From: Cellulosimicrobium terreum
GTDB taxonomy: Bacteria > Actinomycetota > Actinomycetes > Actinomycetales > Cellulomonadaceae
Direction of reading: 5' to 3'
DNA: 64,000 nucleotides
Assembly (NCBI GenBank): GCA_014803435.1
Contig: JACYFD010000003.1
Coordinates: 310,001-374,000, forward strand
Made by a program: the position numbers and the translations under genes. A model generated the notes under the pieces. The model was given only the letters and a program-made list of their open reading frames with translations. It did no database searches and was not told the DNA's origin. This document shows positions 1,818-21,569 of the stretch, piece after piece (the first letter of the stretch is position 1; every line of letters starts with the position of its first letter).

Positions 1818-2849
1818 CTACGGGGCGATCGGCTCGCGACCCGTGGAGCGCGCAGCGGCGGTCGAGCGGCGCACCACGAGCTCGGGCTCGAACAGGAGCT
1901 CGTCGTGCGAGACGTCGACGCCCGCGATCATCCCCGCGAGGAGGTCGACCGCAGCGCGCCCCATGGGCTCGATGGGCTGGCGCACGGTCGTCAGGGCCGG
2001 GTCGGTGAGGTTCATGAGGTTCGAGTCGTCGTAGCCGACGACGGACACGTCCCCCGGGACGTCGAGGCCGGCTCTACGCACGGCGCGGACGGCCCCGAGC
2101 GCGAGCGGGTCGCTCGCGCACACGATCGCGGTAGCACCCGACTCGAGCAACCTGTTCGCCGCGGCCTGCCCGCTCTCGAGCGAGTACTGGCTGTGCGCGA
2201 CGAGGTCCGGGTCCACGACCAGTCCGTTGCGGGTCGCGAAGGCCTCCGCCGCCGCCAGCTTGCGCTCGGACGGCACGTGGTCGGCGGGGCCGAGCAGCAG
2301 TCCGACGCGCTCGTGCCCGAGCGAGAACACGTGGCCGAGGGCCTGGTTCATCGCGACCATGTCGTCGCACGAGACGCGCGGGAAGTCGAGCTCCTCGATC
2401 GAGGCGTTCATGAGGACGACCGGCAGGCCCAGGGTCGCGAGGCGCCGGAAGTGCGCGTGGTCGGCGCGGCGCTCGGCATAGAAGCCGCCCGCGAAGATCA
2501 CGCCGGAGACGTGCTGGCCCAGCAGCAGGTCGATGTACTCGGCCTCCGTCACGCCGCCGGCCGTGCGCGTGCACAGCACCGGGGTGAAACCCTGCTGCGC
2601 CAGCGCTCCGCCGATGACCTCGGCGAACGCCGGGAAGATCGGGTTCACGAGCTCCGGCAGGACCAGGCCGACCAGGCGGCCGCGCTCACCGCGCAGCTTG
2701 GTCGGACGCTCGTAGCCGAGCACGTCGAGCGCCGTGAGCACGGCGTCGCGCGTCGTCTGCGAGACCCCCGGCTTGCCGTTGAGCACTCGGCTCACCGTCG
2801 CTTCACTGACCCCGACCTTGGTGGCGACCTCCGCCAGACGTCTCGACAT
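1818..2849 (-). CDS. LacI-family transcriptional regulator
   Basis: 343-aa LacI/GalR-family repressor. The N-terminal helix-turn-helix reads LAEVATKVGVSEATVSRVLNG (residues about 5-25 with hinge after). It is followed by a periplasmic-binding-protein-like effector domain (about 60-330) with the usual segments LVGLVLPELVNPIF, SVVGYDDSNLMNLTDPALTTV-type and a final LFEPELVVRRST. Normal length for the family. The ATG start is the only one that includes the complete HTH. It lies directly upstream of a GH13 glucosidase on the same strand, so local control of alpha-glucoside metabolism is likely. Candidate operators occur just upstream (2872-2916) and before the glucosidase (1669-1681), which suggests autoregulation. 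Confidence 0.93.
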   Translation of the reverse strand: MSRRLAEVATKVGVSEATVSRVLNGKPGVSQTTRDAVLTALDVLGYERPTKLRGERGRLVGLVLPELVNPIFPAFAEVIGGALAQQGFTPVLCTRTAGGVTEAEYIDLLLGQHVSGVIFAGGFYAERRADHAHFRRLATLGLPVVLMNASIEELDFPRVSCDDMVAMNQALGHVFSLGHERVGLLLGPADHVPSERKLAAAEAFATRNGLVVDPDLVAHSQYSLESGQAAANRLLESGATAIVCASDPLALGAVRAVRRAGLDVPGDVSVVGYDDSNLMNLTDPALTTVRQPIEPMGRAAVDLLAGMIAGVDVSHDELLFEPELVVRRSTAAARSTGREPIAP

Positions 2850-3017: not shown

Positions 3018-3023
3018 TAGGGT
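3018..3023 (+). promoter_or_regulatory. -10 element of a leaderless GH20 transcript
   Basis: TAGGGT ends 6 nt before the GTG at 3030, with no Shine-Dalgarno sequence between. That spacing places transcription start at or next to the start codon. Confidence 0.5.
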
Positions 3024-3029
3024 TGTTCG

Positions 3030-4775
3030 GTGTCCTTCCAAAACTCGTCCGGGCTGGTCCCCGCACCCGCCGCTGCGAGCACGACGCCCGGCACCGTCGT
3101 CCTGGCGTCCGGGTCGTGGGTCGCGTACGACCCCGCGCTACGACCTGCCGCGCGCTGGTGGCGCCGCGTCGTCGAGGACGCGGCCGGCGTCGACCTCGCC
3201 CTCCTGCCCGACGACGTCCCCGCGGCCCTCGGCGACGGTGCCGGCGCCCGCGCCAGCGCCGGGGTCCGGTTCGCGGTCGACACCGACCTGCCCCCGTCGG
3301 GCTACCGCCTCACCGTCGACGGCACGGGCGTCCGCGTCGACGCCGCCGACCTCGACGGCGCTCACGCCGCCGCGCAGACGCTCCGCCAGCTCGCCGGCCC
3401 GCCCGCCTTCCGCCGCGCGCCACTCACCGCAGCGCCGGACGAGGAGAGCACGCGGGTCGTCGAGCTGCCCCACGTCACGGTCACCGACCACCCCCGCTTC
3501 GCCTGGCGCGGGGTCCTGCTCGACGTCGCGCGCCACTTCCTGCCGAAGGCGGACGTGCTGCGGTTCGTCGACCTGGCGGCGGCGCACAAGCTCAACGTCC
3601 TGCAGCTCCACCTCACGGACGACCAGGGTTGGCGGGTCGAGATCGCCCGCTACCCGCGGCTCACGGAGGTCGGATCCTGGCGACGCGAGTCCGGGGTGGG
3701 GACGTGGCGCGCGGGCGTGCTCGACGGTCGCCCGCACGGCGGTTCCTACACGCAGGACGACCTGCGCGAGGTCGTCGCGTACGCGCACGAGCGGGGCGTG
3801 ACGGTCGTCCCCGAGATCGACGTGCCCGGCCATGTCGAGGCGGCGGTCGCGGCGTACCCGTGGCTCGGCACGCGCAAACGGCCGCACGAGGTGCGCACGA
3901 CGTGGGGCGTCAGCACCGAGGTGCTGGACCCGTCGGAGGGGTCGCTGGCGTTCTTCCGCGACGTGCTCGACGAGGTGATGGACGTCTTCGACGCACCGTT
4001 CGTCGCGCTCGGGGGCGACGAGGTCCCGACGACCCTGTGGCGCGAGAGCCCGGGGATCGTCGCGCGCGCGGCGGCGCTCGGGCTGGACGACGTCGGCGAT
4101 CTGCACGGCTGGTTCCTGGCCCGTCTCGCGGAGCACGTGACGTCACGCGGGCGTCGTGCGGTCGTGTGGGACGAGGCAGCCGGGCCGATGCTGCCCCGGG
4201 ACGTCGTCGTGACGTCCTGGCGCGGCTGGGCGGCGGGCGCCGACGCGCTCGCGGCCGGGCACGACGTCGTGATGGCTCCGGAGCAGGTCGTCTACCTCGA
4301 CCACCGCGAGGGCGACGGCCCGGACGAGCCCGTCCCGGTGGGCTTCCTGCGCACGCTGGAGGACGTGTACGCGTTCGAACCGCTGCCCGCCGCGCTGACC
4401 GAGCCGGCGGCGCCAGGCACCCTGCTGGGCGGGCAGGCTCAGGTCTGGTCCGAGCACCTCGACTCCGTCCGGCGCGTCGACTACGCGACGTTCCCGCGCC
4501 TCGCCGCGTTCGCGGAGGTCATGTGGTCGCCGACCGCGGACCGCTCGCCCGGCTCCCCCGCCTCCCAGGAGTTCCGCGAACGCCTCGTGGACCACCACCT
4601 GCCGCGGCTGGACGCCTACGGCGTCGAGCACCGCCCGCTCGCCGGGCCGCACCCGTGGCAGACGCGGCCCGGGGTCCAGGGCTGGCCGCGCGACCTCGAC
4701 ACCGAGCTGGCCGTGGGTGGGCTGCGGGGCGTGGGCGGGTGGGTCGAGGACCTCGACGGGGACTCCCGGCCGTAG
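3030..4775 (+). CDS. GH20 beta-N-acetylhexosaminidase
   Basis: Removes terminal beta-linked GlcNAc (or GalNAc) by substrate-assisted catalysis. The 581-aa protein has an N-terminal GH20b-like domain (about 25-150) and a GH20 barrel (about 155-500). It shows the GVLLDVARHF opening, HLTDDQGWR, EIDVPGH and the catalytic pair in ALGGDEVP (Asp330-Glu331). The His that usually precedes GGDE by two residues is Ala here. No signal peptide is visible, so it is probably cytosolic. The next gene is convergent (10 bp away) and encodes NamZ. Here the GH20 enzyme probably takes the place of NagZ, releasing GlcNAc from imported GlcNAc-MurNAc fragments. A role in chitobiose use is the alternative. Confidence 0.92.
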   Translation: MSFQNSSGLVPAPAAASTTPGTVVLASGSWVAYDPALRPAARWWRRVVEDAAGVDLALLPDDVPAALGDGAGARASAGVRFAVDTDLPPSGYRLTVDGTGVRVDAADLDGAHAAAQTLRQLAGPPAFRRAPLTAAPDEESTRVVELPHVTVTDHPRFAWRGVLLDVARHFLPKADVLRFVDLAAAHKLNVLQLHLTDDQGWRVEIARYPRLTEVGSWRRESGVGTWRAGVLDGRPHGGSYTQDDLREVVAYAHERGVTVVPEIDVPGHVEAAVAAYPWLGTRKRPHEVRTTWGVSTEVLDPSEGSLAFFRDVLDEVMDVFDAPFVALGGDEVPTTLWRESPGIVARAAALGLDDVGDLHGWFLARLAEHVTSRGRRAVVWDEAAGPMLPRDVVVTSWRGWAAGADALAAGHDVVMAPEQVVYLDHREGDGPDEPVPVGFLRTLEDVYAFEPLPAALTEPAAPGTLLGGQAQVWSEHLDSVRRVDYATFPRLAAFAEVMWSPTADRSPGSPASQEFRERLVDHHLPRLDAYGVEHRPLAGPHPWQTRPGVQGWPRDLDTELAVGGLRGVGGWVEDLDGDSRP

Positions 4776-4784
4776 TCGCGGACC

Positions 4785-5960
4785 TCAGCCGTAGAGGAGG
4801 TCGTCCGCGGTCTCCTCGCGCCACCCCGGGACGTCGAGCGTGGCGGGGTCGTCCCACTCCCCCGACGTCAGCGACGCGAACGCGCCGCGCCGCCCGAACA
4901 GGCGCTCGAGCGGGGTGGCGTCGGACTCGCCGGGCTGGAGACCGCGCTGCTCGGTCTCGGCGAGCAGGTCGGGGTAGAGGCGCGCGACGGACCGGACGAG
5001 CGCGACGCCGGTCCGCACCGGGCGGAACTCCTCGACGTCCGTGACGTGCAGCAGCACGCCCTCGCACGCCTCGCCGGCCCAGTCGCGCACGAGCGGCGTG
5101 AACCCGTAGGGCACCGCGCGCACGCCGGGCAGTCCGGCCGCGCGGAGCTCGCGGGCCAGCTCCTCGCCGTCGATCCAGGGTGCTCCGAGGACGCGGAACG
5201 GGACCGCTGTGCTCCGCCCCTCGGACAGGTTGACGCCCTCGATCAGGCAGGTCCCGGGGTAGAGGAGCGCGGTCGTCGGGCTCGGCATGTTCGGCGACGG
5301 CGGCACCCAGGGCCAGGTGGGCGACTCGAGCGCGGTCGTGGCGCGGTCCCAGCCGTCGACGCGCACCACGCGGAGGTCGACGTCGATCGCCCGCGTGCGG
5401 ACCCAGTGCCGCGCGAGCTCGCCGATCGTGAGCGAGTGCCGCAGGGGCATGGCCCACCGCCCGACGAGCGAGTGGCACGCCTCGTCGAGGACGGGGCCCT
5501 CGACCACGTCCAGGTCACCCCCGAGCGGGTTGGGGCGGTCGAGGACGACGACGGCCACGCCGTGCTCGGCGCAGGCCTCGAGGACGTGGCTGAGGGTCCA
5601 GACGTAGGTGTAGAAGCGGGCGCCCACGTCCTGCAGGTCGACGACGACGGCGTCCAGGCCGCGCAGGTCGTCCGCGGTCGGTCGCACGTGCTCGCCGTAG
5701 AGGCTCACGACGGGGATCCCGGTCGCCGGGTCGACGACGCCGGCGACGTGCTCCCCCTCGCGAGCGCGGCCGCTCAGCCCGTGCTCGGGGCCGAGGTAGC
5801 GCACGACGGGGACGCCCGCCCGCCGGAGCGCGACACGGGACACCTCCAGGTCGCTGGTCGTCGCGAGGTCGTTCGTGAGCAGGCCGAGCCGACCGTGGCG
5901 GAGCAGTGCGTCCGCGGCCCGGAGGTCTCCTGCGGCCACCTTGTCGATACCGATCCTCAT
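4785..5960 (-). CDS. namZ: NamZ-type exo-beta-N-acetylmuramidase (DUF1343, GH171)
   Basis: 391-aa member of the DUF1343 family, whose Bacillus subtilis member NamZ (YbzC/YbbC) releases MurNAc from the non-reducing end of peptidoglycan fragments. Family hallmarks visible are LGLLTN (about 25-30), GPEHG (57-61), LQDVGARFYTYVWTL and DRPNPLGG. The ATG at 5960 follows an AGAGG site; in-frame starts further upstream would add an unconserved stretch through the intergenic region. Known Bacillus NamZ is secreted, but this protein begins directly with the catalytic domain and has no signal sequence, which argues for action in the cytosol. It is divergent from murQ and convergent with the GH20 gene. 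Confidence 0.9.
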   Translation of the reverse strand: MRIGIDKVAAGDLRAADALLRHGRLGLLTNDLATTSDLEVSRVALRRAGVPVVRYLGPEHGLSGRAREGEHVAGVVDPATGIPVVSLYGEHVRPTADDLRGLDAVVVDLQDVGARFYTYVWTLSHVLEACAEHGVAVVVLDRPNPLGGDLDVVEGPVLDEACHSLVGRWAMPLRHSLTIGELARHWVRTRAIDVDLRVVRVDGWDRATTALESPTWPWVPPSPNMPSPTTALLYPGTCLIEGVNLSEGRSTAVPFRVLGAPWIDGEELARELRAAGLPGVRAVPYGFTPLVRDWAGEACEGVLLHVTDVEEFRPVRTGVALVRSVARLYPDLLAETEQRGLQPGESDATPLERLFGRRGAFASLTSGEWDDPATLDVPGWREETADDLLYG

Positions 5961-6040
5961 GCCGGACCTCTCGCCAGACCTGTCGCCGAGCATCATCGTC
6001 TTCGTCGTTCCTCTCCGTACGGGGGTGCCTGCGAAACCGT

Positions 6041-6057
6041 GTGGAAATATTTGCCAC
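6041..6057. promoter_or_regulatory. Candidate operator in the namZ-murQ divergent promoter
   Basis: GTGGAAATATTTGCCAC has outer GTGG/CCAC and inner AA/TT pairs in a 17-nt near-palindrome. It lies between the presumed -35 and -10 of the murQ promoter, so a bound repressor could block it. AT-rich sites of this kind are seen for RpiR/MurR-type regulators, but no such regulator gene is in the window. Confidence 0.45.
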
Positions 6058-6062
6058 GAGGC

Positions 6063-6068
6063 TAACCT
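6063..6068 (+). promoter_or_regulatory. -10 element of the murQ operon
   Basis: TAACCT, 17 nt downstream of a weak -35-like TGTGGA (6040-6045), about 60 bp before the murQ start. It is the best sigma70-like hexamer in the divergent region. Confidence 0.4.
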
Positions 6069-6127
6069 GTCGTGTAGACATTCGCCAGAAGATGTCGACG
6101 ACGACCCCGGACGGATGGAGGCCGCGA

Positions 6128-7144
6128 GTGCAGCCACGACCAGCACTGCCCCGCACCGAGCTCAGGAACCCACTCTCGAGCGGGCTGGACACGCGCCGGA
6201 CCATCGAGATCCTCACGACGCTCAACGACGCCGACGCGGAGGTCGCGACAGCGGTCCGGGCCACCCTGCCCGAGCTCGCACGCCTCGTCGACCTGGCCGT
6301 GGACGCCCTCGACGTCGGCGGCAGGATCGTGTACTTCGGCGCCGGGACCTCCGGTCGCCTCGCCGTCCTCGACGCCGCCGAGCTCATCCCCACCTACGCG
6401 CTCGAGCAGGGGCGCTTCGTCGCCCGCATCGCCGGCGGCCCCACCGCCGTCGTCGACGCCGTCGAGGGCGCGGAGGACAGCGTCGACGAGGGGGCGCTCG
6501 ACGCGATCGACCTGACCGCGCAGGACATCGCGGTCGGGATCGCCGCCTCGGGCACGACGCCGTACGTCCGGGGAGCCCTGGAGGCGGCCCGGCGCGTCGG
6601 CGCGACGACGGCGCTGGTCACCAGCAACCCCGAGTCGCCGCTCGCCGGGCTCGCCGACGTCGTCGTCGCCCCGGACACCGGCCCCGAGGTGGTCACCGGG
6701 TCGACGCGCCTCAAGGCCGGCACGGCCGCGAAGCTCGTGCTGAACGGCTTCTCGACCGCCGTCATGGTCCGGCGCGGGCGTGTCTACGACAACCTCATGG
6801 TCGCCCTCGTGGCGACGAACGAGAAGCTCCACCAGCGCTCGGTCCGTATCCTCGGTGCGGTCGGCGGCCTCGAGGAGCAGGCTGCCGAGGCCGCGCTGCG
6901 CGACGCCGGCGGAGACCTGAAGACCGCCATCGTCGCCCAGCTCGCCGGCCTGCCCCCCGCGGAGGCCCGCGCCCGCCTGGACAGCACGGATCAGCACGTC
7001 CGGGCAGCGATCGACGCACCGGCGGCCGACCCGCGCTCGCGGGACGGCCGACCCCACGACCCCGAACCGGAGCGCGACGCACCGACGCGACGCCCCACTG
7101 TGCGACACGCGCACACTGCCCCTCTCGGAAAGGACGATCGATGA
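6128..7144 (+). CDS. murQ: N-acetylmuramic acid 6-phosphate etherase MurQ
   Basis: Cleaves the D-lactyl ether of MurNAc-6-phosphate to give GlcNAc-6-phosphate and D-lactate. The SIS-domain protein shows TELRNP near the N-terminus, GAGTSGR (about 71-77) and LDAAELIPT with the catalytic Glu at about 85. The GTG at 6128 is preferred: GGAGG lies 6 nt before it and the protein then begins 8 residues before TELRNP, as in E. coli. An in-frame ATG at 6092 has no good ribosome site. The core is about 298 aa, the family length. It is followed by a 40-aa Pro/Arg/Asp-rich tail not expected in MurQ. The stop overlaps the next ATG (ATGA), so the operon is translationally coupled to the transporter. Confidence 0.92.
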   Translation: MQPRPALPRTELRNPLSSGLDTRRTIEILTTLNDADAEVATAVRATLPELARLVDLAVDALDVGGRIVYFGAGTSGRLAVLDAAELIPTYALEQGRFVARIAGGPTAVVDAVEGAEDSVDEGALDAIDLTAQDIAVGIAASGTTPYVRGALEAARRVGATTALVTSNPESPLAGLADVVVAPDTGPEVVTGSTRLKAGTAAKLVLNGFSTAVMVRRGRVYDNLMVALVATNEKLHQRSVRILGAVGGLEEQAAEAALRDAGGDLKTAIVAQLAGLPPAEARARLDSTDQHVRAAIDAPAADPRSRDGRPHDPEPERDAPTRRPTVRHAHTAPLGKDDR

Positions 7145-8436
7145 AGAAGCTCATCCCGGTCGCCGCGGCGACCCTCGCCACGGCTCTCGCAATCACGGCC
7201 TGCGCCCCCGGCGGCGGCTCGGCCTCGCAGGACGGCGGTGGTGGTGGCGCCGACGGCGACGTCACGCTCACGGTGTGGTCCTGGCAGGCGCAGAGCTCGT
7301 CCGACTGGGACAAGATCTTCGACGTCTACGAGGAGTCGCACCCCGGCGTCACGATCGACTTCGAGGGCTATCAGCCCACCGAGTACAACCAGATCCTCGC
7401 CACCGGGCTCGCGGGCCGCGACGGCCCGGACGTCGCGATGCTGCGTGCGTACGGCGGTGCCCAGGCGCCGATCGAGGCGGGCCAGCTCGTCCCGATCGAC
7501 GACAGCGTCGACGGGCTCGACGCCTTCGAGCCGACCATCCTCCAGGCGGCGCAGGGTCGCACCGACGGCAAGACCTACGGTGTCCCCTTCGCCTACCAGA
7601 CGATGGCGATGTACTACGACAAGGACGTCTTCGACGACCTCGGGCTCTCCGAGCCCGAGACGTGGGAGGACTTCGTCTCCGTGCAGGAGACCCTCCTCGA
7701 CAACGACATCACCCCCATGGCGCTCGGCGCGCGCGAGGACTGGGTGCTGCCCATGTTCCACGACCTCGTCGGCGCGGCGCGGTACGGCGGCTCGGACTTC
7801 GCCGCGGCCGTGCAGGACGGCTCGAAGGACTTCACCGACCCCGACTACGTCGCCTCCCTCCAGGTGGTCGAGGACATGAAGAAGTATCTGGACAAGGACG
7901 TGAACGCCGTGGCCGTCGCCGACGCGACGCTCCAGTTCACCTCCGGCCAGGCGGCGCAGTGGCCCGGCGGCTCGTTCGACCTCAAGACGTTCCGCGACAC
8001 CGCGCCCGACAAGAACCTCGGCGTGTACCAGGTGCCGCCGCCGCCCGGGTCCCCGGTCGAGGGCGCCGTGACGCCGTCGTACGCGGACGGGAGCTTCGGC
8101 ATCAACAAGGCCGGCGAGCACCAGGACGAGGCCACGGAGCTGCTCAACTGGATGACGACGACGGAGTTCGGCCAGCTGGTCGCCGACGACGTCCTCCAGT
8201 TCTCGCCGCTCGAGGGCGTCTCCTACGAGGACCCGCTCATGCAGGAGATGAACGACGGGTACCTGGCGAACCCGGTGCCCTACCTGCTGCTCGTCGACTT
8301 CCGCTACGGCGACCCTGCGGGCACCGCGGTGCTCGGCCCGGACATCCAGGCGATGTGGCTCGGGCAGAAGGACCCGGCGCAGCTCGCCGACGACCTGCAG
8401 ACCGGGGTGTCCACCTGGTTCACGCCGGGTTCCTGA
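7141..8436 (+). CDS. Sugar ABC transporter solute-binding lipoprotein (CUT1 type)
   Basis: 431-aa extracellular binding protein of family 1 (MalE/UgpB-like). It begins MKKLIPVAAATLATALAITAC, a lipoprotein signal with lipobox ITAC and Cys21 as the lipidation site. A Gly/Asp-rich linker and then TLTVWSWQAQSS lead into the binding domain, which is typical of CUT1 proteins. GGAAAGG precedes the ATG. It overlaps murQ by 4 nt and is followed by two permease genes. From the company it keeps, the ligand is probably MurNAc, GlcNAc-MurNAc or another muropeptide fragment. That is inference, since family members bind many oligosaccharides and specificity cannot be read from sequence. Confidence 0.9.
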   Translation: MKKLIPVAAATLATALAITACAPGGGSASQDGGGGGADGDVTLTVWSWQAQSSSDWDKIFDVYEESHPGVTIDFEGYQPTEYNQILATGLAGRDGPDVAMLRAYGGAQAPIEAGQLVPIDDSVDGLDAFEPTILQAAQGRTDGKTYGVPFAYQTMAMYYDKDVFDDLGLSEPETWEDFVSVQETLLDNDITPMALGAREDWVLPMFHDLVGAARYGGSDFAAAVQDGSKDFTDPDYVASLQVVEDMKKYLDKDVNAVAVADATLQFTSGQAAQWPGGSFDLKTFRDTAPDKNLGVYQVPPPPGSPVEGAVTPSYADGSFGINKAGEHQDEATELLNWMTTTEFGQLVADDVLQFSPLEGVSYEDPLMQEMNDGYLANPVPYLLLVDFRYGDPAGTAVLGPDIQAMWLGQKDPAQLADDLQTGVSTWFTPGS

Positions 8437-8455
8437 CCCGCCTGACCTCACCCGC

Positions 8456-8485
8456 CCCCGGGCGGCCCGCACGGGCCGCCCGGGG
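8456..8485 (+). terminator. Perfect GC hairpin between binding-protein and permease genes
   Basis: 14-bp perfect stem (arms 8456-8469 and 8472-8485) with a 2-nt loop and no T-run. Such hairpins after binding-protein genes (as in malE-malF) usually trim or partly terminate the transcript, so that more binding protein than permease is made. Confidence 0.6.
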
Positions 8486-8507
8486 CCCCTACCCGGACGG
8501 AGCTGAG

Positions 8508-9464
8508 ATGGCCCTCACGGTCCCGCGCCTTCGTCGACGCGCCACCCCGAGCAACACGGGAATCCAGCTCGGGCTCGCGCCGTCGCTCGCCTTCATCCTG
8601 CCCGCGCTCGTGCTGTTCGTGGTCCTCATCCTGTACCCGATGGCGGCCGCGCTGAGCTACTCGTTCTTCGGCTGGCAGGGCACCCTCCGCGGGGACTTCG
8701 CGGGGGTCCAGAACTACGTGACCCTGCTGACCCAGGAGCCCTACGCCTCCGAGCTGTGGCGCGGGTTCTCGCACAACCTCCTGCTCTTCGTCGGCGCGTT
8801 CGTCTTCCAGAACTCCCTCGGCCTCGGCATCGCGCTGCTGCTCCACCGTCGCGGCCGGACGAAGAGGCTGTTCCAGACCCTGTTCACGCTGCCCTACCTG
8901 GTGAGCCCGATGGTGATCGGCTACCTCTGGTCGCTGATGCTCTCCCCGCTGTTCGGGCCGGTGAACACCATCCTGCGCAACGTCGGGCTCGAGAGCCTCG
9001 CCCTGCCCTGGCTCGGCGACCCCGCGTACGCGATCTGGATCGTCGTCCTCGTGTCCGCGTGGCAGTGGCTCGGCTTCCCGATCCTGCTCTACGGCGCGGC
9101 GATCGGCGGGATCCCTCCCGAGCTCGACGAGGCGGCCTCGCTCGACGGCGCCACCGGGTTCGCACGGGTGCGTCACATCACGCTGCCGCTGCTCGTGCCC
9201 ACGATGGGCATCGTCACCGTGCTGACGTTCATCGGGGCCATGGAGGCCATGGCCATCCCGTTCGCGCTGGGCGGCTCGAGCGGCAGCCCGGCAGGTTCCA
9301 CCGACGTGATGATGCTGCTCTTCTACCGCACGGCGTTCGAGTCCGGGAACCCGAACTCGATCGGGATCTCGTCCGCCCTCGCGACCGTGCTCTTCCTGTT
9401 CATCCTCGGCATCTCCATCGGGATCACCCGGGTGATGCGACGCGCCGAGAGGAGGCTGTCCTGA
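8508..9464 (+). CDS. ABC transporter permease, MalF type
   Basis: 318-aa inner-membrane subunit of a CUT1 sugar importer with about six membrane segments (first at roughly 25-50: PSLAFILPALVLFVVLILYP). The cytoplasmic EAA loop reads ELDEAASLDGATGFARVRHITLP-like at about 205-225, the docking site for the ATPase. ATG at 8508 has GGAG about 6 nt upstream. The stop codon overlaps the next ATG (TGATG), coupling it to the second permease. No ATP-binding subunit is encoded nearby, so it probably uses a shared MsmX/MsiK-type ATPase encoded elsewhere, as is usual for actinobacterial CUT1 systems. Confidence 0.92.
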   Translation: MALTVPRLRRRATPSNTGIQLGLAPSLAFILPALVLFVVLILYPMAAALSYSFFGWQGTLRGDFAGVQNYVTLLTQEPYASELWRGFSHNLLLFVGAFVFQNSLGLGIALLLHRRGRTKRLFQTLFTLPYLVSPMVIGYLWSLMLSPLFGPVNTILRNVGLESLALPWLGDPAYAIWIVVLVSAWQWLGFPILLYGAAIGGIPPELDEAASLDGATGFARVRHITLPLLVPTMGIVTVLTFIGAMEAMAIPFALGGSSGSPAGSTDVMMLLFYRTAFESGNPNSIGISSALATVLFLFILGISIGITRVMRRAERRLS

Positions 9465-10378
9465 TGGCAGTGCTCGACACCGAACCGACCGCCGTCGCAC
9501 CGAGCGCGGACCGCCCGTCGGCGGGCGAGGCGCGACGCCGCCCGCGACCCCGCCACGAGGGCAGCCGGCTGGGGCGCCTGCTGATCAACGTCTTCCTCTG
9601 GGGCTACGCTGCCGTCGCCGTCGGCCCGCTCCTGCTGATGGTCAACAACTCGCTGCGCACCCAGCAGCAGATCGCGACCGAGCCGCTGGGGCTTCCGGTC
9701 CCGGCCAGCCTCACGTCGTTCCAGGAGGCCTGGGTCACCGCGTCGTTCCAGACCTACTTCGTGAACTCGATCGTCGTGACCGTGACGTCCGTGGCGCTCT
9801 CGACGTTCGTCTCGCTGCTCGCCGCGTACGCGTTCGCACGCACCCGGGTGCGGGGCATCCGCTCGATCGAGTCGGTGTTCCTCGCCGGCCTCATGCTGCC
9901 CGTCCACCTCGCGGTGCTCCCGCTGTTCTTCATGCTCGACCAGCTCCGGATGACCTCGAACCTCGCGAGCCTCGTCCTCGTCTACACGGCGCTGGGGATC
10001 CCGTTCTGCACGTTCGTGCTCACCGTGTTCTTCCGCCAGCTGCCCGCCGAGCTGGAGGAGGCCGCGCGGCTCGACGGGGCGGGCCCGTTCCGGGCGTTCT
10101 GGTCGGTCATGCTGCCCCTCGTCAAGCCGGCGATCGCGACGGTCGTCGTGTTCCGGTTCGTGCCCGTGTGGAACGACTTCTTCTACCCCCTCATCCTCAT
10201 GCGGGACCCGGACAGCTACACGCTCCCGGTCGGCCTGACCCGGTTCTTCGGCGAGTACTCGACCGACTGGCCCCAGCTGTTCGCGGGACTGACCATCGCG
10301 ACGCTGCCGCTCGTGATCGTGTTCCTCGTCGCGACGCGCCAGATCATCTCGGGTCTGACGTCCGGCATGAGCAAGTGA
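9464..10378 (+). CDS. ABC transporter permease, MalG type
   Basis: 304-aa partner permease of the same CUT1 importer. After a charged, disordered 40-residue N-terminus come about six membrane segments. The EAA motif reads ELEEAARLDGAGPFRAFW in the C-terminal half. The start overlaps the preceding permease stop (TGATG), and its own stop overlaps the next gene's GTG (GTGA). The whole set from murQ through the serine hydrolase is therefore a tightly coupled translational unit. Confidence 0.92.
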   Translation: MAVLDTEPTAVAPSADRPSAGEARRRPRPRHEGSRLGRLLINVFLWGYAAVAVGPLLLMVNNSLRTQQQIATEPLGLPVPASLTSFQEAWVTASFQTYFVNSIVVTVTSVALSTFVSLLAAYAFARTRVRGIRSIESVFLAGLMLPVHLAVLPLFFMLDQLRMTSNLASLVLVYTALGIPFCTFVLTVFFRQLPAELEEAARLDGAGPFRAFWSVMLPLVKPAIATVVVFRFVPVWNDFFYPLILMRDPDSYTLPVGLTRFFGEYSTDWPQLFAGLTIATLPLVIVFLVATRQIISGLTSGMSK

Positions 10379-11379
10379 CCCGAGGCGGACCGCGCCCGGA
10401 CGACCTGCTCGCACGTCCGGGCGCGGACGAGGGCTGGTCCGTCGCGGCCGCGCTGGTCCGCACCCAGGATGCGAGCGTCCGGGCCGCGACGCCCGCCGCG
10501 GGGCCGTCGTGGTGGTTCGACCTCGCGTCCCTCACGAAGGTGTTCGTCGCGGTCGCTGCGCTCCGCCTCGTCGACGACGGCCTGCTCGACCTCGACGCCC
10601 CCGTGCGGGAGCACCTCGACGTCGGCGCGGTCTGCGGCGGTGCCACGACGCGCCACCTGCTCACGCACACGTCCGGGCTGCGTGCGACGTCCAGCGTGTG
10701 GCGCTCGACGGACGACGCCGGGGCCGTGCTCGACGACGTCGTGGAGCGCCCGCCGCTCGAGGCGCCGGGGGACGTCCACCGGTACTCGTGCCTGGGATTC
10801 GTCGTGCTCGGCAGGCTGCTCGAGGTGATCTCCGGCACACCGCTCGACCGCCTCGTCGCGACCCGGGTCGCAGGGCTGCTGGGCGCGCACGACCTGCGGT
10901 GGGGGTCGGCGCCGATCGACCGGACCGCCCCCACGGAGCCCGGGACACCGCGCGGGCGCGTGCACGACGAGCTCGCCGCGGCGACCCGTCGTCCGGTGGG
11001 GAACGCCGGCCTCTTCGGCACCCTCGACGACGTCGCGCGCCTCGCCCAGATGGTGGCCGGTCGGGGCGCCGTCGACGGCCGGCAGGTCGTGAGCGAGGAG
11101 CGGTGGCGCGAGCTCGTCGTCCCGGACCCGGCGGCGCAGCAGGCCGGTGCACCGTACGGCCAGGCGCTCGCCCTGCGGCGCGGCGACCTCGCCGTCACCG
11201 TGTCCGACGCCCAGGTGGGCCACACCGGGTTCACGGGGACGTCGTTCGTCGTGGACCTGGAATCGGGCGCCCACGCGGTCCTGCTGACCAACCGCGTGCA
11301 CGGCGGGAGGGCGACGTCGGTCGACGCCCGGCGGCGTGCGCTCGCGGGACGGCTGGTGCCGGAGCGGCACGGAGGGTGA
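10375..11379 (+). CDS. Beta-lactamase-family serine hydrolase, AmiE-like
   Basis: 334-aa class C beta-lactamase/penicillin-binding-protein-like hydrolase. Visible catalytic motifs are SLTK (Ser52, Lys55), YSC (Tyr137, where YSN or YSx is usual) and HTG (283-285). No signal peptide, so cytosolic. In Bacillus subtilis the AmiE (YbbE) protein of this superfamily is a MurNAc-L-Ala amidase encoded beside murQ, nagZ and namZ. The identical gene company here makes removal of the stem peptide from MurNAc the most likely job. The GTG start overlaps the permease stop by 4 nt. An esterase or D-peptidase function is the alternative. Homology to AmiE specifically was not computed. Confidence 0.8.
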   Translation: MTRGGPRPDDLLARPGADEGWSVAAALVRTQDASVRAATPAAGPSWWFDLASLTKVFVAVAALRLVDDGLLDLDAPVREHLDVGAVCGGATTRHLLTHTSGLRATSSVWRSTDDAGAVLDDVVERPPLEAPGDVHRYSCLGFVVLGRLLEVISGTPLDRLVATRVAGLLGAHDLRWGSAPIDRTAPTEPGTPRGRVHDELAAATRRPVGNAGLFGTLDDVARLAQMVAGRGAVDGRQVVSEERWRELVVPDPAAQQAGAPYGQALALRRGDLAVTVSDAQVGHTGFTGTSFVVDLESGAHAVLLTNRVHGGRATSVDARRRALAGRLVPERHGG

Positions 11380-11485
11380 TCCGCCGCGCCGAGGATGGCA
11401 AGATCGGGAAGGGTCCGTACCAATTCGCCGCGCGCGCCCGTCGCGCCGGCCGGACCAGCCAGCCGAGACCAGGAGCACCCACGCC

Positions 11486-13165
11486 GTGACGCATCCGTCC
11501 GACCCCGCGGGCCGGCTCGTGGTGCGCGGCGCGCGCCTGCCGGTTCCCGACGGCGGCCTGTCCGACCCGGTCGACGTCACGATCACGGACGGGCACGTCG
11601 CATCGCTCACCCCCGCGGCCGGGACCGCGGGCCACCGGGCCTCGGGGCACGACGACGCGCGCGTCCTCGACGCCGACGGTCGGCTCGCGCTGCCAGGGTT
11701 CCTCGACGCGCACGTGCACGGCGAGGCGGCCGTGCTCGACGACGACGTGCAGCTCGCGATGCTGCGCCAGGGGGTCACGGGGATCGTCGTCGGGCAGGAC
11801 GGCGTGTCCTACGCGCCCTCCCCCGCGGACGCGCCCCACGACGCGCACCGCTGGGCATCCGGCTACTTCGCCGCGATCAACGGCGAGCACCCGACGTTCC
11901 ACGGCGGCACGGTCGCCGACCTGCTCGCCACGTACGACCGCACGACGCGCGTGAACGTCGGGACCCTGGCCCCGCACGGCACGATCCGCTACGCGGTCCT
12001 CGGCGCGCAGGCACGCGCCGCGAGCACCCACGAGCGCGGCCTCATGGTCGCCCTCCTCACCGCGGCGCTCGACGACGGCGCGCTCGGCCTGTCCACCGGG
12101 CTGGAGTACGTCCCCGCCGCGTACGCGGACGAGGCGGAGCTCGTCGCGCTGGCAGGCGTCGCGGCGGCGCGCGGCCTGCCGCACGTCTCGCACATGCGGG
12201 GCTACGAGGACAGGGCCGGCCCGGCGTTCGCGGAGCTCGTGCGGATCGCGCGCGCGTCCGGCGTCGCGACGCACGTGTCCCACTACCACGGCCCCGCGGA
12301 CGAGCTCCTGGGCTACGTCGACGACGCCCGCGCCACCGGCCTGGACGTCACGTTCGACTCCTACCCCTATCTGCGCGGCTGCTCGATCCTGTCGATGGTG
12401 ACCCTGCCGACGTGGCTGCCGATCGCCGACCCCGACGCGACCGTCGCCGCCCTGGCCGACCCCGCCGTGCTCGACCGCCTGCACCGCGAGCACCTCCCGG
12501 GCCTGGCAGACCTGTGGCCCCGCGTGACCCTGGCCGCCGTCCCGACCGACGGGTCGGGCGGCGCACCCGCGCCCGACCTCGCCTGGACGGAGGGCATGGC
12601 GCTGCCCGACGTCGCGGCCCGGCTCGGCCTCTCCGCCGCGGACGCGGCGCTGCACCTCCTCGTCGCGACGCGCCTGCGCGCGTCGTGCGTGTTCGCCCAG
12701 CCTCCGACGAGCTCGCCCGCGTCGGTGCGCGCGCTCCTGCGGCACCCGGCCCACATGGGCGGGTCGGACGCCATCTACGCGCCCGTCGGTGGCGGCGGGC
12801 GACCGCACCCGCGCGGGTGGGGGGCGTTCGCGCGCTTCTGCTCCGAGCACGTGCGCGGGCTCGGGGACTGGACCTGGCACGACGCGGTGGAGCACCTGTC
12901 GGCCGCGCCGGCGCGGCGCTTCGGGCTCGCCGGCCGCGGGTCGCTCGCCGCGGGATCGGTCGCGGACGTCGTGCTCGTCGACCCGCACCGGGTCCGCGAC
13001 GAGGCCACGTACGAGCGGCCGCGCGTCCCGGCGTCGGGCATCGAGGACGTCCTCGTCGCGGGCGTGCCCGTCCTCGCGGACGGGAGGCTCACCGACGCCA
13101 CCCCCGGACGCCCGCTGCGTCCGGCCCGACCCGACCCTGCCGGAGGATGGACGCATGACAGCTGA
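11486..13165 (+). CDS. N-acyl-D-amino-acid deacylase (D-aminoacylase)
   Basis: 559-aa amidohydrolase of the D-aminoacylase family, which hydrolyses N-acyl-D-amino acids to D-amino acids. The metal-binding DAHVHGE (His76, His78), the family segment GLSTGLEYVPAAYA, SHMRGYED, the later VSHYHGP histidines and the catalytic-Asp region GGSDAIYAP are visible. Length is slightly above the usual 480-530. GTG at 11486 is chosen because the conserved beta-sandwich start LVVRGARLPVPDGG follows at once. A 106-bp gap separates it from the serine hydrolase, so a secondary promoter is possible. It overlaps the next gene by 11 nt, and the two encode successive steps in D-amino-acid breakdown. Confidence 0.88.
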   Translation: MTHPSDPAGRLVVRGARLPVPDGGLSDPVDVTITDGHVASLTPAAGTAGHRASGHDDARVLDADGRLALPGFLDAHVHGEAAVLDDDVQLAMLRQGVTGIVVGQDGVSYAPSPADAPHDAHRWASGYFAAINGEHPTFHGGTVADLLATYDRTTRVNVGTLAPHGTIRYAVLGAQARAASTHERGLMVALLTAALDDGALGLSTGLEYVPAAYADEAELVALAGVAAARGLPHVSHMRGYEDRAGPAFAELVRIARASGVATHVSHYHGPADELLGYVDDARATGLDVTFDSYPYLRGCSILSMVTLPTWLPIADPDATVAALADPAVLDRLHREHLPGLADLWPRVTLAAVPTDGSGGAPAPDLAWTEGMALPDVAARLGLSAADAALHLLVATRLRASCVFAQPPTSSPASVRALLRHPAHMGGSDAIYAPVGGGGRPHPRGWGAFARFCSEHVRGLGDWTWHDAVEHLSAAPARRFGLAGRGSLAAGSVADVVLVDPHRVRDEATYERPRVPASGIEDVLVAGVPVLADGRLTDATPGRPLRPARPDPAGGWTHDS

Positions 13166-14528
13166 CCACGCACCCGACCCGGGAGACGCACGGGCCTGGG
13201 CCCGCGACGTCGTCGGGCCGCGGACCAAGGGCCTGCGCCTCGCGCGCACGACGACCGTCGCCGACGTCCTTGCCCCAGGCACCGGCACGGACGACGACCC
13301 CGAGCGGCCGCCCCGCATCACGGACGACCGCTTCTCCTGGCCGCTCCTCACGCTCGACGACGCGGCGCTCGACCACAACGTCGGACTCATGGCGCGGCTG
13401 TGCGCCGAGCGGGGCGTCGAGCACGCCCCGCACGTGAAGACCGCGATGTCGCGCGGGCTGTACGCCCGCCAGGTCGCGGCCGGTGCGTGGGGCGCGACCG
13501 TCGCGACGCCCGGCCAGCTCCGCACGGTCCTCGACTGGGGCGGCCAGCGGGTCTTCCTCGCGAACGAGCTCGTGGACCCGCGCGACCTCGCGTGGCTGCG
13601 GCGCGAGCTCGACGGTTCCGGGACGGGCGGGGGGTCGCGCGAGGTCTGGCTGTACGTCGACTCGACCCGCGGCGTGGACCTGCTCGCGCGCGCGTTCGCG
13701 GGCGCCGACGTCGAGGTGGTCTCGCGGCTCGGCGTGCTCGTCGAGGTCGGTGTGCCGGGCGGGCGCACGGGCGTGCGCAGCGAGGCCGAGGCGCTCGACC
13801 TCGCTCGCGCGGTCCGGGCCGCCGGGCTCCGTCTGCTCGGCGTCGCGGGCTACGAGGGGTCGGTCGCGGGCGGGACGGACCCGGAGCAGCTGGACGCGGT
13901 CCACGCGTGGTGCCGCCACCTGCGCGAGGTCGGGGCCGCGCTCGTGCGGGCCGGGCTCGCGGGGGTCGACGAGCCGCTCGTGCTGTCGGCAGGCGGGAGC
14001 TCGTTCCTCGACGCCGTGCTCGCGGAGCTCCCCGGACCGCTCGCGGACGCGGACGTGCGCGTCGTCGTGCGCTCGGGCGCGTACCTCACGCACGACCACG
14101 GCTTCTGCGCACGCATGGACCCCTGGGACCGCATCCCCGGCGCGGAGCCCATGCACGCCGCGGCGACCGTCTGGGGCCAGGTCCTGTCCGTGCCCGAGCC
14201 CGGGCTGGTGATCTGCGGCGTCGGGCGGCGCGACGTGTCGTTCGACATCGACCTGCCCGTCGCGCTCGCGCTGCGACCGCTGGACGACGACGGCGCGCTG
14301 CGGCCGGCCCGTGAGCTGGCCGGGGCGAGCGTCACCGCGCTCAACGACCAGCACCTGTACCTCACGCTCGGACCGGGCGCCGGCCGTGGTCCCGCGACCG
14401 CGCAGGTGCGGCCCGGCGACGTGATCGGGTTCGGGATCTCCCACCCGTGCACGACGCTCGACCGCTGGCACGTCGCCGCCGTCGTGCGTGGCGACGAGGT
14501 CGTCGACCTCGTCACGACCGACTTCTGA
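13155..14528 (+). CDS. PLP-dependent D-threonine aldolase/D-serine dehydratase-like enzyme
   Basis: 457-aa fold-type III PLP enzyme with an alanine-racemase-like N-terminal barrel and the D-serine dehydratase-like C-terminal domain. HVKTAMS carries the presumed PLP Lys95. SHPC near the C-terminus (His430, Cys432) matches the zinc site of eukaryotic-type D-serine dehydratase and D-threonine aldolase. Members convert D-Ser or D-Thr to oxo acids plus ammonia, or cleave beta-hydroxy-D-amino acids. ATG at 13155 lies inside the 3' end of the D-aminoacylase gene. With the following RidA, the order suggests deacylation, elimination, then hydrolysis of the enamine. The exact D-amino acid is not readable. 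Confidence 0.82.
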   Translation: MTADHAPDPGDARAWARDVVGPRTKGLRLARTTTVADVLAPGTGTDDDPERPPRITDDRFSWPLLTLDDAALDHNVGLMARLCAERGVEHAPHVKTAMSRGLYARQVAAGAWGATVATPGQLRTVLDWGGQRVFLANELVDPRDLAWLRRELDGSGTGGGSREVWLYVDSTRGVDLLARAFAGADVEVVSRLGVLVEVGVPGGRTGVRSEAEALDLARAVRAAGLRLLGVAGYEGSVAGGTDPEQLDAVHAWCRHLREVGAALVRAGLAGVDEPLVLSAGGSSFLDAVLAELPGPLADADVRVVVRSGAYLTHDHGFCARMDPWDRIPGAEPMHAAATVWGQVLSVPEPGLVICGVGRRDVSFDIDLPVALALRPLDDDGALRPARELAGASVTALNDQHLYLTLGPGAGRGPATAQVRPGDVIGFGISHPCTTLDRWHVAAVVRGDEVVDLVTTDF

Positions 14529-14549
14529 CCCCTCTCCGGAAGGACACCC

Positions 14550-14957
14550 ATGAGCACCCAGAAGACCGCAGTCTCCACCACCGACGCCCCCGCGCCGGCG
14601 CACACGTTCCACCAGGGCGTGCGCAAGGGACCCTTCGTCCAGATCTCGGGCCAGGGTCCCGTGGACCCCGCGACGAACGAGTACCTGTTCCCGGGCGACG
14701 TCGCGGCCCAGACCACGCGCACGCTCGAGAACGTCCGCGCGATCGTCGAGGCGGCGGGCGCGACGTTCGACGACGTCGTCATGCTGCGCGTGTACCTGAC
14801 CAAGCGCGAGGACTTCTCCGTCATGAACGACGCCTACGGCGCGTTCGTCTCCGCGCACACCACGAACGGCGTCCTGCCGAGCCGCACCACGGTGTTCACC
14901 GGCCTCCCCCGCGAGGAGATGCTCGTCGAGATCGACGCGTTCGCCGTCACGGACTGA
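14550..14957 (+). CDS. RidA-family enamine/imine deaminase
   Basis: 135-aa YjgF/YER057c/UK114 protein that hydrolyses reactive enamines and imines released by PLP dehydratases. Family positions are present: SGQGPVDP, the substrate-binding Arg in LPSRTTV and the Glu in LVEIDAFA at the C-terminus. The ATG follows CGGAAGGACACCC, a good ribosome site. It lies 21 bp after a PLP dehydratase-like gene, which is the functional partner expected for RidA. The order supports a D-amino-acid deamination module. Confidence 0.9.
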   Translation: MSTQKTAVSTTDAPAPAHTFHQGVRKGPFVQISGQGPVDPATNEYLFPGDVAAQTTRTLENVRAIVEAAGATFDDVVMLRVYLTKREDFSVMNDAYGAFVSAHTTNGVLPSRTTVFTGLPREEMLVEIDAFAVTD

Positions 14958-14980
14958 CACCCACCCACCGGAGCAGCTCC

Positions 14981-16198
14981 ATGATCGGGACGATCGCCGT
15001 CGAGGGGTACCGCTCGCTGCGGCGCCTCGTGCTGCCGCTCGGGCGCCTCACCGTCGTCACGGGCGCCAACGGGACCGGCAAGTCGAACCTCTACCGCTCG
15101 CTGCGGCTCCTGCAGCAGTGCGCGCTGGACGGGGCCGTCGGGGCGCTGGCCCGCGAGGGCGGGCTCCGGTCGACCCTGTGGGCGGGACCGGAGCACGGGG
15201 TACGCGCGACCCGGGGCGGCGCGGACGCACGCAGCCGCCTGCGCACGGCGCCGGTCGCGGTGCGCCTCGGCTTCGCCGGCACGGGGGCGGGAGACCTCGG
15301 GTACGCGGTCGACCTCGGCCTCCCGCAGGACGGGGGCTCGCCGTTCGCGCTCGACCCGGAGATCAAGGTCGAGGCCGTGTGGACGGGCCCCGTGCTGCGT
15401 CCGGGGACCCTCCAGGCGGAGCGGCGCGGCCCCGCCGTGCGGCTGCGCGACGACGACGGCGCGTGGTCCACCTCGCCGGTGCGGCTGCGCACGTTCGACA
15501 GCATGCTCACCGAGCACGTCGACCCGGTGGGTGCGCCGGAGGTGGTCGCGGTGCGCGAGCGGCTGCGCTCCTGGCGCTTCTACGACCAGTTCCGCACCGA
15601 CCCGCTCGCGCCTGCACGGGCGGTGCGGGTGGGCACGCGCACACCCGTCCTCGCGCACGACGGCGCCGACCTCGCCGCCGCTCTCGCGACCGTCCAGGAC
15701 CTCGGCCGGGCCGACGAGCTGGACGCGGCCGTCTCGGCCGCGTTCCCGGGCGCCCGGGTCGAGGTCCGGGCGGACGACGGCCGCTTCGAGGTCGACTTCC
15801 ACCAGCAGGGCCTCCTGCGACCCCTCAGCGGCGCGGAGCTGTCCGACGGCACGCTGCGCTACCTCCTGTGGGTCGCCGCGCTGCTCAGCCCACGACCACC
15901 CGCGCTCCTCGTCCTCAACGAGCCGGAGACGAGCCTGCACCCGGACCTTCTGCCCGCGCTCGGCGCGCTCGTGCACGCCGCGGCCCGTGACACCCAGGTC
16001 GTCGTGGTCACGCACTCGAGCCTGCTCGTCGACGCGCTCCGCCGGACCGCCTCGTCGGTCACGGCGACGGGAGCAGACGAGCTCCCCGGCGAGGACGACG
16101 TCGCCGAGGTCGCGCTCGAGAAGGCGGACGGCGAGACCGTGGTGACCGGGCGCCATGGCCTGCTCGACCAGCCGCTGTTCCCCTGGCCGAGGCGCTGA
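14981..16198 (+). CDS. AAA-family ATPase of RecF/ABC-like type
   Basis: 405-aa predicted ATPase with Walker A GANGTGKSNL (about residues 28-37), the signature-like LSGAELSDGTLRYL (about 275-290), Walker B LLVLNEPETSLHPDL and the switch histidine in VVVVTHSSLL. This is the head-domain architecture of the AAA_15/AAA_21 predicted ATPases, with a short middle insertion instead of a long coiled coil. ATG at 14981 follows GGAGCAG. It starts 23 bp after ridA on the same strand and so may be cotranscribed. No known role in amino-sugar use; such stand-alone ATPases are sometimes parts of defence or repair systems, but no nuclease partner is adjacent. Confidence 0.8.
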   Translation: MIGTIAVEGYRSLRRLVLPLGRLTVVTGANGTGKSNLYRSLRLLQQCALDGAVGALAREGGLRSTLWAGPEHGVRATRGGADARSRLRTAPVAVRLGFAGTGAGDLGYAVDLGLPQDGGSPFALDPEIKVEAVWTGPVLRPGTLQAERRGPAVRLRDDDGAWSTSPVRLRTFDSMLTEHVDPVGAPEVVAVRERLRSWRFYDQFRTDPLAPARAVRVGTRTPVLAHDGADLAAALATVQDLGRADELDAAVSAAFPGARVEVRADDGRFEVDFHQQGLLRPLSGAELSDGTLRYLLWVAALLSPRPPALLVLNEPETSLHPDLLPALGALVHAAARDTQVVVVTHSSLLVDALRRTASSVTATGADELPGEDDVAEVALEKADGETVVTGRHGLLDQPLFPWPRR

Positions 16199-16207
16199 CC
16201 CGTCCGC

Positions 16208-17062: not shown

Positions 17063-17183
17063 CACCCCATCGTGCCCGACGGCGCGGGGCCCGGCACCGG
17101 CCGACGCCGTCCCAGCGTGGTACGGCCGCTCCCAGGCTCGACGCTCCCTGGAGGCCTGGCCCGGCGGCGGGGACGCTGGCGAC

Positions 17184-21520: not shown

Positions 21521-21569
21521 CGGCAGCAAGCCGCGGCGAGCGGCAGCTCGCTGCAGCCAGGCCGCGAAG

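Follow-up and report, generated by a model that had tools for sequence, protein, structure and literature searches.

How actinobacteria bring the sugars of the peptidoglycan back into the cell is the question raised by a gene cluster of Cellulosimicrobium terreum. The cluster lies in a stretch of 64,000 nucleotides (assembly GCA_014803435.1, contig JACYFD010000003.1, positions 310,001 to 374,000), which is called the window and to which coordinates refer unless a contig or locus is named. N-acetylmuramic acid (MurNAc) is recycled by actinobacteria such as Streptomyces coelicolor and mycobacteria, yet the importer MurP is lacking in the species studied (PMC5061867, PMC13041923). The etherase MurQ is known from actinobacteria, and the literature describes its importer as either missing or unknown (PMC5061867, PMC13041923), the mycobacterial MurNAc transporter still being called unknown in a 2026 preprint (PMC13041923). 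UspABC of Mycobacterium tuberculosis, an ATP-binding cassette (ABC) importer implicated in amino-sugar recognition, is described as a possible recycling route (PMC12617635). A full-text literature search, with most subscription journals outside its scope, returned no described actinobacterial ABC importer of MurNAc or muropeptides. The window cluster most probably forms a catabolic or recycling system for peptidoglycan sugar with ABC import, its ligand and activities being predicted from sequence. A MurNAc or muropeptide cluster built on an ABC importer had been proposed in the initial annotation, and this is supported by the gene families, by the co-occurrence of the solute-binding protein (SBP) with MurQ and by the recurrence of the cassette in other genomes.

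The genes are listed below, with starts as called by a composition script in DNA of 74% G+C.

1818..2849, minus strand: LacI-family regulator, adjoining the GH20 gene (Pfam and neighbour tables).
3030..4775, plus strand: GH20 beta-N-acetylhexosaminidase (PF00728, E 2.2e-104; nearest solved protein 3rcn, 596 bits).
4785..5996, minus strand: NamZ-type exo-beta-N-acetylmuramidase (PF07075, E 1.5e-68; PF20732, E 7.2e-35; solved relatives 4k05 and 4jja).
6128..7144, plus strand: MurQ, MurNAc-6-phosphate etherase (TIGR00274 equivalog, 306.7 bits, cut-off 302; PRK05441, 362 bits).
7141..8436, plus strand: CUT1-type solute-binding lipoprotein, the SBP (PF01547; lipobox visible in the sequence).
8508..9464, plus strand: ABC permease of MalF/UgpA type (PF00528).
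9470..10378, plus strand: ABC permease of MalG/UgpE type (PF00528; possible alternative start ATG at 9464).
10375..11379, plus strand: AmiE-like beta-lactamase-fold serine hydrolase (PF00144), a proposed cytoplasmic MurNAc-peptide amidase.
11486..13165, plus strand: amidohydrolase, DAA (PF07969; nearest solved protein the N-acyl-D-glutamate deacylase 3gip).
13155..14528, plus strand: pyridoxal phosphate (PLP) enzyme of D-serine dehydratase type, DTA (PF14031, PF01168; nearest solved protein the D-serine deaminase 3gwq).
14550..14957, plus strand: RidA-family enamine/imine deaminase (PF01042).

All ten genes named in the initial annotation, GH20 to RidA, were recovered when families were assigned by Pfam and NCBIfam scans. 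The NamZ_N and NamZ_C domains scored 230.6 and 121.4 bits against cut-offs of 26.9 and 25, and muramidase activity is predicted. A lipoprotein SBP with two BPD_transp_1 permeases is the composition of a CUT1 importer. The same scans detected no phosphotransferase system (PTS) protein (MurP EIIBC) among the cluster genes, a genome-wide search not having been made, and the cluster encodes no MurT transporter of the major facilitator superfamily (MFS), the ABC SBP and permeases standing in its place. The AmiE-like protein had no match among solved structures at 1e-15.

From murQ to ridA all genes are on the plus strand, preceded by the LacI gene (minus), the GH20 gene (plus) and namZ (minus); since namZ is divergent from murQ, the set comprises at least two transcription units. 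The LacI-family regulator is likely the local regulator of the cluster. According to the neighbour tables, it is retained beside GH20 in Cellulosimicrobium marinum (locus L042), and none was seen in Oerskovia (L044). Further details of the first description had to be corrected. Four-nucleotide overlaps, said to join most genes from murQ to the hydrolase, exist at two of the four junctions (murQ/SBP and permease/AmiE-like); the SBP and the first permease are separated by 71 nt, and the junction of the two permease genes measures 1 nt when the second is taken to start from the ATG at 9464. The end of the cluster had been placed at 16198, which is the end of an AAA_21 ATPase gene (14981-16198). 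As this gene is absent between ridA and the glycerate kinase gene in C. marinum L042, it was rejected as a member and the cluster ends near 14957. The XRE regulator gene that follows is also missing from the matching place in C. marinum and is no conserved member either.

The association of the importer with MurQ was examined across the order, in 396 genomes, with the SBP family defined by an alignment (A1) with E <= 1e-60 and MurQ by E <= 1e-40. The SBP family occurs in 20 genomes, all 20 of which have MurQ, compared with 146 of 396 overall (hypergeometric probability 9e-10, without correction for kinship). MurQ is encoded within 500 bp of the SBP in 17 of the 20 and on other contigs in one more, positions being on record for these 18. 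Among named genomes, 41 SBP loci were found, and MurQ is present in 41/41 of those genomes.

Neighbours were tabulated for 43 loci (the 41 named-genome loci, L035 and the window itself) by six-frame homology within the fetched flanks. AmiE-like genes are near the SBP in 38 loci, RpiR regulators in 35, NamZ in 26, MurQ in 25 and BadF-type kinases in 17; rarer neighbours are DTA (5), the amidohydrolase (4), a dehydrogenase (4), GH20 (4, one of them weak) and RidA (3). Recurrence in relatives, which the initial annotation had set as a test, was found: five families of the order have murQ, the SBP and two permeases assembled in a cassette, accompanied by RpiR, a BadF-type kinase, NamZ and AmiE-like proteins.

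Two variants of the cassette were observed. In Microbacterium-type loci (L046-L059, L063) the SBP, permeases, NamZ and AmiE-like genes are kept together, mostly with RpiR, and murQ is elsewhere in the genome; the order of modules is flexible. A metagenome-assembled genome of a spirochaete (L081, 8530-12441) has NamZ lined up with two permeases and an SBP of 36% identity, MurQ being encoded elsewhere in the assembly. The link between transporter and NamZ extends beyond actinobacteria.

MurQ needs a kinase, because an ABC importer delivers unphosphorylated sugar. A candidate for the missing MurNAc kinase is a BadF-type protein encoded on another contig (C1:305890-306876), unlinked to the window cluster. 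Among solved proteins its best relative is 8zo3, a kinase for N-acetylmuramic acid and N-acetylglucosamine (E 3.6e-11), and six kinases adjoining murQ in other genomes share 42-51% identity with it; it reaches 43.9 of the 370 bits of the NCBIfam NagK model, and its activity is a prediction. Within the genus of the window, full-length MurQ is present in 9 of 17 genomes, a BadF kinase above 50 bits in the same nine, and neither in the other eight. Across the order, the kinase was detected in 55 of 396 genomes with E below 1e-56, 54 of them with MurQ (66 of 74 at 1e-40). Of the 20 SBP genomes, 18 encode the kinase within 5 kb of the SBP, the exceptions being the genome of the window, where it is unlinked, and G130, which has none at this threshold. 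AnmK was discarded as the supplier of phosphorylation, a profile search of the window genome giving no match.

Next to the BadF-type gene are a gene for an RpiR/MurR-type regulator and then one for a 983-residue FAD/Fe-S protein of the D-2-hydroxyacid dehydrogenase kind. This row is repeated in all three other genomes fetched at this place (L037, L038, L039), and a dehydrogenase gene directly follows the kinase gene in L035, L068 and L082. The dehydrogenase fits the system because MurQ releases D-lactate, and it is likely a D-lactate oxidase, with NCBIfam scores far under the curated cut-offs. In engineered Corynebacterium glutamicum grown on MurNAc, lactate accumulates (PMC6165865).

The murQ and kinase loci may share an operator. 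Two sites were noted upstream of murQ.

6040..6056, plus strand: operator-like site TGTGGAAATATTTGCCA in the namZ-murQ gap.
6073..6087, plus strand: second, weaker operator-like site TGTAGACATTCGCCA, read from the sequence and compared with L042 and L044.

The promoter of the C1 kinase carries TGTGAAACTTTGTGCCA, and kin sites precede murQ in C. marinum, Oerskovia and Actinotalea. The pattern TGTGRAAN{1,3}TTTGN{0,2}CCA has exactly two sites in the 4.49 Mb genome, before murQ and before the C1 kinase gene, and none when reversed as a control. A looser pattern, applied to 1.48 Mb in which overlapping stretches are counted repeatedly, hit nothing but promoters of murQ and of the kinase, apart from one site in L081; the L037 kinase site and the Actinotalea sites escaped it. 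It is suggestive only that one RpiR/MurR-type regulator governs both loci through a common site.

The three genes that follow the AmiE-like gene had been described as a D-amino-acid arm of the cluster, the first as a D-aminoacylase. This amidohydrolase scores 184.5 bits with 3gip and 142.2 with the best D-aminoacylase among solved proteins, and 156 bits with PRK09061, whose curated cut-off is 340. The PLP enzyme scores 58.5 bits with PF14031 (cut-off 22), and 184 bits with 3gwq compared with 45 for the best D-threonine aldolase; its substrate is predicted. The trio recurs in Actinotalea sp. K2 (L061), where one stretch encodes the dehydrogenase, RidA, the amidohydrolase, the D-serine dehydratase type, NamZ and RpiR, followed by MurQ, SBP, both permeases, the kinase and the AmiE-like protein (families by Pfam for six genes, by homology for the rest). 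This locus unites both loci of the window genome and the D-amino-acid arm. The arm is also retained in C. marinum L042, and in Oerskovia L044 the contig ends after the DAA gene. Near the SBP the arm is otherwise rare, the amidohydrolase, DTA and RidA being confined to the four, five and three loci counted above, window included; the Actinotalea locus is the most telling of them.

This rarity is one of the points in favour of a separate origin, in which the genes at 11486-14957 form an unrelated neighbouring operon for free or N-acyl-D-amino acids; others are the 106 nt that separate these genes from the AmiE-like gene and the position of DTA homologues in two Cryobacterium loci, 6 kb away beside another transporter. 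Against it are the arm kept in C. marinum and the DAA-DTA-RidA trio of Actinotalea, which is on the other strand there. The composition of the wall also argues against it: interpeptide bridges of Actinotalea contain D-Ser, then D-Glu, D-Asp or L-Asp, in an account that does not cover strain K2 itself (PMC8878594). Xylanimonas, of the same family as the window genome, has L-Lys-D-Asp peptidoglycan (PMC3035249). The literature search yielded no source stating that Cellulosimicrobium peptidoglycan contains D-Ser, and the link to the bridge relies on Actinotalea. On balance an unrelated operon is considered somewhat improbable; the arm plausibly handles amino acids of the bridge, with RidA removing the reactive aminoacrylate.

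The size of the imported molecule depends on where the hydrolases act. Localization was judged by a simple hydropathy rule, which found a signal-peptide-like start in the SBP of 43/43 loci. NamZ was flagged in one of 26 loci (L081, by a stretch within the conserved domain), and in all 26 a start codon adjoins the conserved N-terminus. No signal-peptide-like start was found in the GH20 of the window, L042 and L044, nor was the AmiE-like protein of the window flagged; the weak GH20 homologue of L064 was. Since NamZ, GH20 and the AmiE-like protein of the window show no signal peptide, the imported fragments are probably larger than free MurNAc, a cytoplasmic exo-muramidase making sense only if an oligosaccharide is imported. 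The fragments are probably dismantled inside the cell.

It is alternatively conceivable that the importer takes up free MurNAc only, cut by enzymes outside, and that the cluster's NamZ, GH20 and AmiE-like protein leave the cell by an unseen route or act on another substrate. Free MurNAc is the cargo of MurP in Escherichia coli and Bacillus subtilis and of MurT in Tannerella (PMC5061867, PMC5790795), and 17 of the 43 cassettes, those of Agromyces included, have no NamZ nearby. This explanation is nonetheless unlikely, as 25 of 26 NamZ proteins have no signal-peptide-like start while in G046 a stand-alone NamZ carries a twin-arginine-like leader (and adjoins a glycosidase-like protein with a leader of this kind), and a cytoplasmic exo-muramidase requires an oligosaccharide inside.

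That the cluster is a system for chitin or N-acetylglucosamine (GlcNAc) oligosaccharides lying beside murQ by chance, with an SBP of NgcE/chitobiose type, is very unlikely: weak matches of the SBP to GlcNAc/chitobiose- and chitin-oligosaccharide-binding proteins and the action of GH20 on chitooligosaccharides would fit, but the SBP scores 43 against an NgcE cut-off of 399.65, GH20 is a neighbour in far fewer loci (4/43) than AmiE-like proteins, RpiR, NamZ and MurQ, and MurQ is present in 41/41 SBP genomes. The matches of the SBP being weak and mixed, no ligand is claimed on that basis. The initial annotation had GH20 replacing NagZ; it is present in the window, and as a general substitute it was rejected as too rare, being near the SBP in three of 43 loci, window counted, plus the weak homologue.

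Several points weigh against a peptidoglycan-sugar system working as described. There is no ABC ATPase among the cluster genes, no search for one elsewhere in the genome having been made, and no sugar kinase among them either. Members of this bacterial group usually have a shared ATPase of MsiK type. Because of kinship among the genomes, the SBP-MurQ counts do not represent independent cases. The cassette has no murQ nearby in 18 of the 43 loci (14 of Microbacterium, one of another Microbacteriaceae, two of Promicromonospora and that of the spirochaete), although these genomes carry MurQ elsewhere. The two Promicromonospora loci (L076, L077; 51-52% identity) have zero partners nearby, and their SBPs may be paralogues with another ligand. 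The hydropathy rule is not SignalP, and it flagged 12 of 37 AmiE-like proteins, mostly within the fold: three of the flags fall on the catalytic SxxK region, eight on a stretch that comes after a run of three to five acidic residues, and that of L075 on neither. Both operator patterns were composed after the sites were seen, and a first pattern, discarded for its wrong spacing, gave 11 sites at three mismatches against five in the control and missed both of the sites.

The peptidoglycan-sugar system would then operate as follows. Outside the cell, wall hydrolases would free di- or oligosaccharides containing MurNAc, with or without peptide. These would be imported by the lipoprotein and the two permeases, driven by an ATPase presumed to be encoded elsewhere. 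In the cytoplasm, the AmiE-like hydrolase, judging from its family, would strip the peptide, and NamZ and GH20, on the same grounds, would remove MurNAc and GlcNAc from the non-reducing ends. The BadF-type kinase encoded on the other contig would generate MurNAc-6-phosphate, and the dehydrogenase beside it would oxidize D-lactate. In what is the weakest step, the amidohydrolase, the D-serine dehydratase type and RidA may process D-amino acids of the peptide or interpeptide bridge, RidA being proposed to clear 2-aminoacrylate formed from D-Ser. The RpiR/MurR-type regulator encoded with the kinase may control both loci through the common site.

A broader proposal is advanced tentatively, at slightly less than an even chance. 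The cluster would do in a Gram-positive cell what the muropeptide route does in Gram-negative bacteria. An ABC importer would take up intact di- or oligosaccharides together with peptide and even bridge amino acids, and these would be dismantled in the cytoplasm by NamZ and GH20, by an amidase and by an arm for D-Ser and D-Glu that suits the chemistry of the wall; two unlinked loci would form one MurR-type regulon, and the cassette would have moved between actinobacterial families as a unit. What is offered here is a candidate importer family for actinobacterial cell-wall sugar, statistically tied to MurQ across one order, along with a candidate for the kinase and a probable D-lactate oxidase. 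The prediction is that wall fragments are cut inside a Gram-positive cell, not outside as in Bacillus. Wall recycling is relevant to antibiotic tolerance, soil competition and the use of cell-wall waste.

Each enzyme family is already known. With the murQ-murR-murP-amiE-nagZ-namZ set of B. subtilis (ybbI-ybbC) the system as a whole shares MurQ, NamZ, an AmiE-type PF00144 protein, a MurR/RpiR-type regulator and a beta-N-acetylglucosaminidase. It differs by an ABC importer and a separate, putative kinase instead of the PTS transporter MurP, by GH20 instead of the GH3 enzyme NagZ, and by hydrolases without visible signal peptides. NamZ of B. subtilis is reportedly a secreted exo-muramidase. AmiE and NagZ of this bacterium work outside the cell (PMC5061867). 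Tannerella forsythia murTKQ resembles it in taking up the sugar without a PTS, and there MurQ is encoded next to a MurNAc kinase (PMC5790795, PMC10465942), but MurT is an MFS transporter, whereas the system described here has an ABC importer and fragment-cutting enzymes, with the candidate kinase unlinked in the window genome. SCO4305-SCO4308 of S. coelicolor (MurQ being SCO4307) resembles it as an actinobacterial MurQ with a MurR-like regulator and no MurP; in the accessible text no importer is named there, and SCO4305 and SCO4306 are given as of unknown function (PMC5061867). The combination works like murTKQ and the Bacillus set and is a member of neither, because the cluster has no MurP and no MurT and its hydrolases are apparently inside.

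In a tree of 40 MurQ proteins, which does not include the SBP-linked MurQ of L045, L067, L068, L075 and L080, the window MurQ groups with those of Oerskovia, C. marinum, Isoptericola, Frigoribacterium and Actinotalea (99/87). This group is nested in a clade of 20 rows, mostly SBP-linked and mostly of Microbacteriaceae (100/98). AnmK-linked MurQ, present in 8 of the 17 genomes of the window's genus, falls outside the window MurQ clade, and NamZ occurs in only 2 of the 17. Transfer as a unit and repeated loss would both explain this distribution, either sufficing.

A second type of MurQ cluster was encountered in relatives (L013-L016, L018, L029 and others), encoding another SBP, two permeases, a GH3 NagZ without visible leader, AnmK and MurQ. 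It is similar to the window cluster in its ABC importer, MurQ and a hexosaminidase without visible leader, and differs in its SBP (24-28% identical to that of the window), in having GH3 NagZ and AnmK, and in a MurQ that, within the window's genus, belongs to another clade. AnmK was above the cut-off in 14 of 59 genomes, 14/14 with MurQ. This second type suggests ABC-fed recycling of anhydromuropeptides in Gram-positive bacteria. A conserved pair of elements, TGGCAGTAATCTTCA and GGAAGTAAGTTTCA, precedes it with small variations in L013-L016 and L018, and is perhaps another RpiR-type operator. In L029, besides the ABC importer, a protein read from the sequence as resembling a sodium:solute symporter is encoded between AnmK and MurQ (7992-9491), a candidate for a third type of transporter for muramic sugars.

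An Rfam scan of window positions 1-25000 gave nothing above threshold, and a promoter and terminator scan gave no promoters and one terminator-like site, compared with 1.1 in shuffled sequences. A 95-nt tRNA-Ala (cgc) reported by ARAGORN at 21477-21571 overlaps the 3' end of an HlyIII-like gene (20852-21520), its length and overlap suggesting a false call. Between ridA and the glycerate kinase gene (14981-17731), the AAA_21 ATPase, which weakly resembles the MADS3 defence ATPase, and the XRE/MmyB-like regulator are perhaps an insertion, possibly related to defence.

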